Positions 3,891 through 5,749 of a DNA stretch of 28,812 bases are shown here, one piece after another (position 1 is the stretch's first letter; each line of letters starts with the position of its first letter). Source of the DNA: a virus; the IMG/VR virus record IMGVR_UViG_3300011114_000567, positions 1 through 28,812 of that record, one strand, 5' to 3'. Position numbers and translations under genes: made by a program. Under the pieces are notes generated by a model that was not told where the DNA came from, did no database searches, and worked only from the letters and a program-made list of their open reading frames with translations.

Positions 3891-4108
3891 AATACACATT
3901 CAATCCCGACCTTCTTCAATTTGTGCCAGTTCCAAAAGCAGGACTAATGTACAGGCTTACTTTGAGCTTCCTGATATTACTTGCAGGGCTTTCATTCTTC
4001 GTAGCTTATACGTGGCCAAAACATAGCCCATTCAAACAAAAGCAATCCACTACTGATTCAGTTCAGGTAAGTGGAACATTTCACAAAGAAAAAAAATACA
4101 CCAAATGA
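3887..4108 (+). CDS. Small membrane protein, 73 aa, one transmembrane segment
   Basis: Function unknown. After an N-terminal 20 residues with a polar/proline segment (NPDLLQFVPVPKAG) there is one strong hydrophobic helix, about residues 21-42 (MYRLTLSFLILLAGLSFFVAY), followed by a hydrophilic, lysine- and serine/threonine-rich tail of about 30 residues. This suggests a short bitopic protein with its tail outside the cytoplasm. Its start overlaps the ninG stop (ATGA), and its stop overlaps the start of another membrane peptide at 4105. A spanin-like or superinfection role can be imagined, but the genes lie far from the lysis genes. Confidence 0.65.
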   Translation: MKYTFNPDLLQFVPVPKAGLMYRLTLSFLILLAGLSFFVAYTWPKHSPFKQKQSTTDSVQVSGTFHKEKKYTK

Positions 4109-4212
4109 AACATAACACATCGAAATCCGAAAACTATCTCCCATTTGTATTGATGCTATTCGTTACCATCTTACTTCTTGGGCTTGATTACTTTGCAGAA
4201 ATTTTAAAATAA
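4105..4212 (+). CDS. 35-aa membrane peptide
   Basis: A very short reading frame whose ATG overlaps the preceding TGA (ATGA), the same coupling used across this operon. The product has a polar start of about 12 residues, then a continuous hydrophobic helix, about residues 13-29 (PFVLMLFVTILLLGLDY), and a short end FAEILK. The organisation, not homology, is the evidence that it is translated. It is the last gene before the promoter and structured leader of the replication initiator. Confidence 0.5.
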   Translation: MKHNTSKSENYLPFVLMLFVTILLLGLDYFAEILK

Positions 4213-4214
4213 AT

Positions 4215-4245
4215 TTTGCCAATTCAGATTAATCATTTATAATTG
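4215..4245 (+). promoter_or_regulatory. Candidate Bacteroidota-type promoter for the replication leader
   Basis: TTTG at 4215-4218 and TATAATTG at 4238-4245 are separated by 19 bp, the spacing expected for the Bacteroidota primary sigma factor (TTTG, about 19-21 bp, TAnnTTTG). The -7 box has one mismatch. Transcription would begin near 4248-4252, at the first base of stem A in the structured leader. This coincidence supports a dedicated transcript start. Confidence 0.55.
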
Positions 4246-4247
4246 CA

Positions 4248-4360
4248 GTGTCGAGTAGTTAATGAAATTTAAAAACCAAATACAGCCCCGTACCATTTCA
4301 GCTAATTTATTAGCAGACTGCTCGACACATTCTTTAATTTGTGCGGGGCTTTATTTTTAT
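4248..4360 (+). ncRNA. Structured leader RNA with interlocked stems (candidate pseudoknot) upstream of the replication initiator
   Basis: Three helices can be drawn by eye. Stem A pairs 4248-4260 with 4316-4328 (13 bp including two G-U; core GTGTCGAG with CTCGACAC). Stem B pairs 4284-4293 with 4341-4350 (10 bp including one G-U; AGCCCCGTAC with GTGCGGGGCT). Hairpin C is 4301-4305 with 4310-4314. The order A, B, C, A', B' makes A and B interlocked, so they form a pseudoknot or compete. B' is followed by a U-rich run (4350-4364), so stem B may act as a terminator. The initiator ATG is at 4365. It could be a cis-acting control leader or a short independent RNA; I do not recognise a known RNA family. 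Confidence 0.6.
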
Positions 4361-4372
4361 TATTATGGCTAA
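4262..4372 (+). CDS. Possible 36-aa leader peptide spanning the structured leader
   Basis: An ATG directly after the 5' strand of stem A opens a 36-codon frame that crosses stems B, C, A' and B' and stops at 4370-4372. The stop overlaps the initiator start in ATGGCTAA. The product begins MKFKNQIQPRT and ends GLYFYYYG, and resembles no family I know. Its stop/start overlap permits translational coupling to the initiator, and ribosomes here would remodel the RNA stems. It may equally be a chance frame in an RNA element, so confidence is low. Confidence 0.3.
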   Translation: MKFKNQIQPRTISANLLADCSTHSLICAGLYFYYYG

Positions 4373-5087
4373 AGATACTTTTTATTTTTCGCATGACTTC
4401 AATGCCAGGAGTGATGATAAAATCAAAATGCTAATAAGAAAGCATGGGATTTTAGGGTATGGCACGTATTGGGCTATAATCGAAGACCTTTATAATAATG
4501 CGAACGCATTGCGATTGGATTGCGATGGCATTGCGTTTGATTTGCGAGTGGATTGCGAAGTTGTAAAATCTGTACTTAATGACTTTGATTTGTTTGTTTT
4601 TGATGGTGAAATATTTGGCAGTATATCGGTTGAAAGGAGATTGGATGAACGTAACTCTAAATCTGCAAAAGCAAGAGATTCAGCTAATAAGAGATGGGGA
4701 AAGATAAAAGACGATGCGAACGCATTGCGAACGCATTGCGATGGCAATGCTATAAAGGAAAGGAAAGGAAAGGAAATTAAAGAAATAAAAGAAAGCGTAA
4801 ATAAATTTACTCCTCCCACTTTTCAAGAAGTAATTTTAATTATTACAGATAAAAAAGAAGCAGAGGCTTTTTTGGATTTGTACAAATCAAATGGGTGGAT
4901 GGTTGGCAAAAACAAAATGAAAGATTGGGAGGCTGCTGCTCGAAATTGGTTAAGAAGAAAGGTTGAATTTTCTAAACCACCACAAAAAACAGGGAAGCTA
5001 AATTTTGACCCAAAACCGATGGGAAGCGATTACGATAAACGCAAAGCATTTCCAAGCGTAGTATGGCCCGAAGATATAATTAAATAG
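4365..5087 (+). CDS. Phage replication initiator / replisome organiser (DUF4373, Lin1244/Lin1753-like)
   Basis: Probable origin-binding protein that recruits the helicase loader. Residues about 5-45 (TFYFSHDFNARSDDKIKML, then GYGTYWAIIEDLY) match the N-terminal winged-helix DUF4373 domain. The middle is a basic, low-complexity linker encoded by repetitive DNA. The C-terminal part carries the DnaD-like ending NGWMVGKNKMKDWEAAARNW (about 176-195). I start at ATG 4365, not at the in-frame GTG at 4341, because the conserved domain begins at MAKDTF and 4341 lies in stem B'. The gene contains two iteron arrays with an 11-bp period that is out of phase with codons, so the origin is probably inside it, as in lambda O. 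A DnaC-like gene follows after 23 bp. Confidence 0.85.
   Translation: MAKDTFYFSHDFNARSDDKIKMLIRKHGILGYGTYWAIIEDLYNNANALRLDCDGIAFDLRVDCEVVKSVLNDFDLFVFDGEIFGSISVERRLDERNSKSAKARDSANKRWGKIKDDANALRTHCDGNAIKERKGKEIKEIKESVNKFTPPTFQEVILIITDKKEAEAFLDLYKSNGWMVGKNKMKDWEAAARNWLRRKVEFSKPPQKTGKLNFDPKPMGSDYDKRKAFPSVVWPEDIIK
4497..4562 (+). repeat. Iteron array 1: six 11-bp repeats, candidate origin
   Basis: Six repeats start at 4497, 4508, 4519, 4530, 4541 and 4552, exactly 11 bp apart. The core is ATTGCGA (variants AATGCGA, ATTGCGT, TTTGCGA) followed by four variable bases. Since 11 is not a multiple of three, successive copies lie in different codon phases and encode different residues, so the conservation is at the DNA level. 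The spacing of about one helical turn places all copies on nearly the same face of the helix, as expected for binding sites of an initiator. Confidence 0.8.
4713..4756 (+). repeat. Iteron array 2: three to four 11-bp repeats, candidate origin
   Basis: Repeats start at 4713 (GATGCGAACGC), 4724 (ATTGCGAACGC), 4735 (ATTGCGATGGC) and a degenerate one at 4746 (AATGCTATAAA), again exactly 11 bp apart. The second 11-mers match units of array 1, 216 bp upstream. The array ends where the purine-rich tract begins. Its position next to an easily melted stretch is the usual layout of a lambdoid-type origin. Confidence 0.75.
4751..4812 (+). other. Purine/AT-rich stretch, candidate DNA unwinding element
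   Basis: Immediately after iteron array 2 an uninterrupted purine run (4754-4776) contains four GGAAA units at 4757-4776, followed by an A-rich, nearly C-free region to about 4812. It encodes a lysine/glutamate linker, so composition alone could explain it. Next to initiator iterons it is the natural candidate for origin melting, comparable with the A-rich segment beside the lambda O iterons. Confidence 0.5.
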
Positions 5088-5110: not shown

Positions 5111-5749
5111 ATGAAAAACATGGAAATCCAAAAATTGCAGGATGGTCGAATTGCCCGTATGCAATCCTTTCCCGAAACCGCTGACCAATTTTGCAGCGAT
5201 GGTAGATTTATTGTCGATGGAGAAAATCAAGAAGTAGTCGACAGGCTTTGCAGATATATTGACAACAATATAAGCGGAACACATAATATCAATAAAGGAA
5301 TATTGATAATGGGGCCTATGGGTACTGGAAAAACCATCATGATGCAAACACTGGCAAAGCTCACACTAAAAGAAAAGTTTAGAATGGTAAGCCTTGTAAA
5401 CATCGCCGAGCAGTATAATCTTGAAGGTGCAGACTCATTTGCAAACTTTAACCGACACAAGTCAGCCCCGATCCATATGGATGACAAAGGCAAACTAAAC
5501 CATATCTGCTTAGATGATTTGGGAAGGGAAAGGCCTGAATCAATCTACATGGGTGCAAGGTGCGATGTAGGTCAGCATTTGATTTATGCCCGGTATAATG
5601 TTTGGAAGAATTTTAAAGTCAAGACTCACTTCACTTCAAATATAAACAGTGAACCCGAAATGATATTACGATATGGAGCATTGGCTTGGGATAGGCTGAA
5701 AGAGATGTGCAACATTGTAATCATGTCTGGGGAGAGCAGAAGGAAATGA
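5111..5749 (+). CDS. DnaC-like helicase loader (AAA+ ATPase)
   Basis: Probable loader that delivers host DnaB-type helicase to the phage origin. Walker A is GPMGTGKT (68-75), Walker B is ICLDDLG (132-138), a sensor-1-like TSN is at 175-177, and a late arginine-containing segment LRYGALAWDRLKEMCNIV (about 186-203) matches the DnaC/IstB sensor region. At 212 aa it is slightly short, with a reduced N-terminal helicase-binding part. Starts at 5111 or 5120 are both possible. It follows the initiator directly, as in lambda O-P, and its stop overlaps the start of a small gene at 5746. No polymerase or replicative helicase gene is seen, so host replisome proteins are presumably recruited. Confidence 0.87.
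   Translation: MKNMEIQKLQDGRIARMQSFPETADQFCSDGRFIVDGENQEVVDRLCRYIDNNISGTHNINKGILIMGPMGTGKTIMMQTLAKLTLKEKFRMVSLVNIAEQYNLEGADSFANFNRHKSAPIHMDDKGKLNHICLDDLGRERPESIYMGARCDVGQHLIYARYNVWKNFKVKTHFTSNINSEPEMILRYGALAWDRLKEMCNIVIMSGESRRK

Follow-up and report, generated by a model that had tools for sequence, protein, structure and literature searches.

Interlocked RNA helices in the leader of a replication-initiator gene from a Bacteroidota-type phage: a very probable RNA switch

In plasmid ColIb-P9 (IncI-alpha) the leader open reading frame (ORF) repY is coupled to repZ, and the attenuators of pT181 and pIP501 work through loop-loop pairing. Asano and Mizobuchi (1998), in the parts of their report cited here, describe translation of repZ as dependent on an RNA pseudoknot switch, in which the pseudoknot activates and an antisense Inc RNA blocks it (PMC8383071). 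In SGI1, according to the sections of the source cited, the short leader ORF S004 overlaps the start of repA inside a stem-loop, and RepA production requires that S004 be translated in cis; the same sections cite leader-peptide coupling for tap-repA of plasmid R1 (PMC7826253). The excerpts cited for pT181 and pIP501 describe transcription attenuators of Rep (PMC10724649, PMC8383071). In fluoride and other pseudoknotted transcriptional riboswitches, a co-transcriptional pseudoknot competes with a downstream terminator (PMC11077080).

The leader studied here lies at 4213-4372 of the window, by which we mean the whole 28,812-nt stretch analyzed, a 28.8-kb virus record. By analogy, it appears to work most like the plasmid leader-peptide/pseudoknot control of Rep, and we claim membership in no known system. 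The ColIb-P9 leader likewise belongs to a replication initiator. In the window, stems that cross beyond chance expectation precede the initiator and may form a pseudoknot, and a short predicted ORF, which may be coupled to the initiator, has a stop that overlaps the initiator start, an arrangement enriched among leaders of the same style. Unlike in ColIb-P9, the first stem of the window's leader (A) would close the start of the leader ORF, and the carrier is a Bacteroidota-type phage. A leader ORF overlapping the initiator start is also shared with SGI1 S004-repA and R1 tap-repA, but the cited parts of the SGI1 report describe one stem-loop and no crossing stems, and the initiators and hosts are unrelated. 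Attenuation in a replication-initiator leader, as the excerpts describe it for pT181 and pIP501, is a further likeness, but the partner there is an antisense RNA, whereas here it is the leader's own 5' end. Unlike the fluoride-type riboswitches, the window's leader has no recognizable aptamer core and no Rfam match at the gathering score (permissive best matches, E>3).

Antisense-RNA control was considered and set aside: the promoter pattern TTG-N18-21-TAnnTTTG matched no minus strand among 94 leaders versus eight plus strands, which is weak evidence as this strict pattern misses most plus-strand promoters, that of the window included. Our literature search found no description of a phage leader of this kind or of leader RNAs in Bacteroidota phages, and to our knowledge little is known about how these phages set the onset of replication. 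We suggest that the leader very probably gates replication in this Bacteroidota-type phage as an RNA switch not described before.

Interlocked helices, promoter and leader ORF

The segment is best explained, from its sequence and position, as a cis-acting leader RNA heading a phage replication-initiator gene. The locus contains the following features:

4214-4245, plus strand: Bacteroidota-type promoter, TTTTG (4214-4218)-N19-TATAATTG (4238-4245)
4248-4260, plus strand: 5' arm of stem A, at the presumed transcript start and directly 5' of the leader ATG
4262-4372, plus strand: leader ORF of 36 codons, MKFKNQIQPRTISANLLADCSTHSLICAGLYFYYYG followed by a stop that overlaps the initiator start (ATGGCTAA)
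4284-4293, plus strand: 5' arm of stem B
4301-4314, plus strand: hairpin C, GCTAA-TTTA-TTAGC, just 5' of A'
4316-4328, plus strand: 3' arm of stem A (A'), within the loop of B
4341-4350, plus strand: 3' arm of stem B (B'), ending 14 nt 5' of the initiator ATG
4350-4364, plus strand: T-rich tail, a weak intrinsic-terminator-like tract
4365-5087, plus strand: replication initiator with a Lin1244_N domain (PHROG 2562, replication initiation protein)
5111-5749, plus strand: DnaC-like helicase loader, the next gene in the module

Stem A (GTGTCGAGTAGTT/GACTGCTCGACAC) has 13 bp, including two G-U pairs, and a stacking energy of -24.9; stem B (AGCCCCGTAC/GTGCGGGGCT) has 10 bp, one of them G-U, and a stacking energy of -23.5. 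Both lie where the original prediction had placed them, and their order (A, B, C, A', B') makes them cross. With nearest-neighbour stacking energies, the combined crossing score is -48.4 kcal/mol. None of 1,500 dinucleotide shuffles of 4213-4372 scored as well (mean -21.8, minimum -34.9), and the leader ranks first among 1,434 windows of 160 nt taken from both strands of the record, bearing out the earlier claim that such interlocked pairs are improbable by chance. The runner-up in the record (-39.1) is on the minus strand at 1053-1252, opposite predicted ORFs.

Plain folding of the leader yields A and C only (-24.5, z -2.3); B is missing because such programs are unable to show both crossing stems. 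When the two states are forced separately they are isoenergetic (A only, -24.5; B only, -23.9). During transcription A can form fully once about 4332 has been reached, when B' has yet to be made. In principle one molecule may contain both A and B, and we do not claim from linker lengths that B sterically excludes A: the hairpin C segment may allow both.

The TATAATTG element of the promoter has a single mismatch to TAnnTTTG. Using a pattern widened to take in common variants, we identified a -7 element of this type no more than 40 nt from the structure in 39 of 41 curated related leaders, compared with 6% of random windows; in most of these leaders it lies a few nucleotides 5' of hairpin 1 or stem A. 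A transcript start at 4248, or a few bases to either side, is therefore credible. The near-consensus promoter that had been proposed is thus upheld, and the start, originally put at the first base of A, is credible to within a few bases.

The U-rich run had also prompted the suggestion that B could be a terminator. The tract is present, but it is weaker than a classical terminator: intrinsic terminators combine a GC-rich stem, a short loop and a U run, whereas the loop of B spans 47 nt and the T tract is interrupted, and a terminator scan of the window made no call at 4350-4364.

The leader ORF begins directly 3' of A and spans B, C and A'. It was absent from the original prediction. Its start abuts stem A and its stop overlaps the initiator ATG. 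Its presence shifts the likely mechanism from a terminator or ribosome-binding-site switch to leader translation coupled to the pseudoknot.

Leaders upstream of related initiators

DNA-similarity searches of phage records returned matches to coding regions only and none to the window's leader, and an exact search with its B'-tail-ATG segment gave no matches. The initiator itself has hundreds of relatives. We read the upstream DNA at 459 loci, of which 186 were non-redundant and 94 lacked a long ORF abutting the initiator. Many have the same topology in other letters: a stem stands just ahead of the initiator ATG and carries in its loop the complement of a 5' element. In most relatives a crossing leader, unrelated in its letters, occupies the corresponding position or heads the initiator operon, and a Bacteroidota promoter usually lies immediately 5' of it. 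Among T-tracts no more than 30 nt before the initiator, from which near-duplicates were removed by exact 30-mers only, 27 of 52 (52%) score -24 or better, as opposed to 78 of 2,500 (3%) elsewhere in the same loci.

A strict script applied to 109 non-redundant viral loci placed leaders directly upstream of the initiator in 56 and at the operon head in 16; four had too little upstream DNA, and 33 were negative, about ten of which have a leader by other analyses. Where the initiator is preceded by another gene, the leader is often one gene further upstream, at the operon head. The intervening gene encodes an HNH endonuclease-like protein in L003 (2618-2947), L008, L015, L018 and L021 (2640-3008), and other small genes occupy this position in L031, L152 and L153. 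Upstream of the initiator in L107, L112, L115 and L120 no crossing leader was found and the preceding short gene is different; this sub-lineage may be under other control. Overall, the relatives of the initiator on viral contigs indicate that the crossing leader is selected rather than accidental.

Alignable classes allowed the pairing to be followed through sequence change. The ten sequences of class G1 share 22 pairs, forming hairpin 1, a loop-loop helix between hairpins 1 and 3, hairpin 3 and a closing stem B. All cells (100%) are standard pairs and 16 of the 22 pairs changed on both sides, including five of the seven pairs of the crossing (kissing) helix. None of 500 shuffles reached these values, either for percentage paired or for covariation score; in slid controls 35-47% was paired. 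In G3 (20 sequences), 96.4% of cells are paired, ten pairs show changes on both sides, and the kissing helix is 100% paired with three of its seven pairs covarying, a count that leans towards structure because it was made on hand-cut, equal-length segments with three odd sequences left out (MAFFT misaligned the loop). G2, G4 and single leaders show the same pattern by eye. Weak matches of G2 leaders to the G3 model (E 1e-5 to 1e-4) point to a probable relationship between the two classes.

The covariance analysis originally proposed as a check thus gives strong support in related leaders of G1 and G3, and the window's own leader, for which no alignable homologue was found, falls outside both models. 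It scores 5.9 bits (E 0.8) against the G1 model R1, compared with 57-101 bits for members and L003, and 11.1 bits (E 0.04 in 401 bases) against the G3 model R2, compared with 68-108 bits for members. As it fits neither, the window shares topology and position with these classes and not demonstrable sequence ancestry.

About 12 leaders resemble that of the window more closely: the window itself, L043, L046, L047, L077, L110, L137, L160, L165, L167, L322 and L372. We defined this style, with the window among the members from which it was drawn up and to which it conforms, by A abutting the leader ATG, the 5' arm of B, hairpin C, A', a short linker, and B' ending 10-22 nt before the initiator ATG. 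A is long in most of them, and a strong 5' hairpin is usually missing. In eight of 11 tabulated leaders the end of A falls -3 to +2 nt from the leader ATG, B' ends 10-22 nt 5' of the initiator ATG, and by inspection a small hairpin like C usually lies 5' of A'. The leader ORFs are mostly 29-43 codons long, and GC content is 16% in the first 18 nt past the leader ATG versus 35% in the body. In ten of 12 leaders (2.7 expected from shuffles) the reading frame continues to near the initiator, and in seven of 12 (1.2 expected) its stop falls on the initiator start; these figures, which retain L043 despite its uncertain A stem, are indicative, since the ORF set was noticed before testing and L165 and L372 are related. 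Two of the 12 have no long ORF. Leaders of the kissing type (G1-G4) mostly lack one as well, and leader translation is therefore not the common denominator.

When L165 is compared with L372, A reads TTTGACCA in the former and TTTGACAC in the latter, and A' reads TGGTCAAA and GTGTCAAA, respectively. The changes are compensated and the peptide is altered, so the pairing is kept and the peptide sequence is not. In both of these leaders A is located inside the end of the preceding gene. Part of A is repeated just before the initiator ATG in L077, L110 (1060 and 1172), L160 (3259 and 3361) and L167, so that either start region would be a possible partner for A'.

A further class, G5, is defined by an exactly shared 23-nt core (TGCTCAGGCATGGGCGTAAAAGG) in 19 viral contigs (L467-L485; for example, L473:3382-3475, minus strand). 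In every case the core lies 73-82 nt 5' of an initiator-like gene, which carries Lin1244_N or DUF6291 where tested. One loop has two possible partners, an arm further downstream (6-9 bp) and a repeat of the sequence at the start codon (5-8 bp). In at least four sequence types the two copies have changed in concert. G5 has no Rfam match. The core was found in none of 396 Bacteroidota genomes, and host genes thus offer no hint of a ligand. That the same RNA precedes genes for different proteins speaks against the initiator simply regulating its own expression, at least for G5.

Proposed control of the initiator

Comparison of sequences shows a promoter-linked leader with predicted interlocked helices, places the pairing under selection in relatives, and adds a small ORF, putatively coupled to the initiator, in leaders of the window's style. 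We propose, with a probability of roughly one half, that leader translation coupled to the pseudoknot sets initiator output. Pairing of A with A' would close the ribosome entry site of the leader ORF, and B, 14 nt before the initiator AUG, would keep ribosomes off that AUG; jointly with the T-rich tail it may terminate transcription as well. If a ribosome loads on the leader ORF while A' has yet to be transcribed, it would open A and B in moving along, end at the overlapping stop and re-initiate on the initiator, after which the pseudoknot would close again. Initiator output would thereby be limited to fresh, actively translated transcripts. A ribosome covering the 5' part past the 5' arm of B would abolish B. 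The original prediction had offered B as a terminator, a block to translation or part of a pseudoknot; the interlocked, promoter-linked leader on the initiator is supported, and the plain terminator or ribosome-binding-site switch, proposed with the leader ORF overlooked, becomes the less likely mechanism.

The main rival remains a pure transcription attenuator, in which B and the T-tract would form an intrinsic terminator that the A:A' or kissing helix helps or hinders, leader translation being irrelevant. It fits the kissing classes better than leader translation does: B or its hairpin is compact there and followed by TTTTTT just before the ATG, most of these leaders are without an ORF, and the leader keeps its place at the head of the operon where an HNH or other gene intervenes. 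The large loop of B in the window's style and the recurring leader ORF, which attenuation leaves without explanation, speak against it, and several window-like leaders have a weak T-tract or none. Given this inconsistency of the tract, the pure-terminator reading is at its weakest for the window's style, and we consider attenuation alone unlikely as the explanation. Alternatively, the pseudoknot may bind a metabolite or protein and so set initiator expression in the manner of a riboswitch. The exact core of G5, the alternative partners of its loop (B' or the start-codon copy) that change together, and its position upstream of initiator-like genes from two Pfam families are consistent with such a switch; the window's leader has no conserved core and lies outside the class models, and the G5 core is absent from the Bacteroidota genomes searched, which leaves a ligand- or protein-responsive switch improbable here.

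The direct and inverted repeats of A around the gene start in L110 and L160 might instead point to DNA sites, with A and A' (and the A repeats near the ATG in relatives) bound by a repressor or by the initiator, as at an operator or origin. This is very improbable: the complementary stretches of the kissing classes fall exactly in hairpin loops, their stems covary independently, G-U pairs are used, and G5 serves unrelated proteins. No further copy of A occurs within the window, giving no support for an origin with repeated sites, which was ruled out on this ground. Very improbable too is a stable small RNA that ends near 4360 and acts in trans, with the initiator made from read-through only. 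It would have its own promoter and, in the kissing classes, a strong terminator-like end, but wherever loci were read the leader belongs to the initiator operon, the leader ORF of the window extends into the initiator start, and the terminator is weak in the window's style.

Beyond leader translation in the window, we tentatively suggest, at somewhat less than even odds, that Bacteroidota phages guard their initiator operons with many fast-diverging RNA switches of one topology, each pairing the opening bases of its transcript with the loop of the final structure ahead of the gene. Some, such as that of the window, would be read by a leader ribosome, and others (G5) would resemble ligand sensors switching between a pseudoknot and sequestration of the start codon. 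If one topology has been kept under wholesale sequence replacement, this would be an unusual conservation of RNA architecture without sequence, of a kind that motif databases miss. As the leaders are short and self-contained and have many natural variants, the role of crossing helices in control of transcription and translation is directly testable.

Two further observations are minor. A short ORF with a hydrophobic stretch (MKHNTSKSENYLPFVLMLFVTILLLGLDYFAEILK) occupies 4105-4212 of the window, immediately 5' of the promoter. The Rfam search of 35 related loci returned two tRNA matches only. A tRNA match at L058:2422-2529 is spread over 108 nt with a score of 40 bits, which suggests an insertion in a tRNA gene or a decayed copy.
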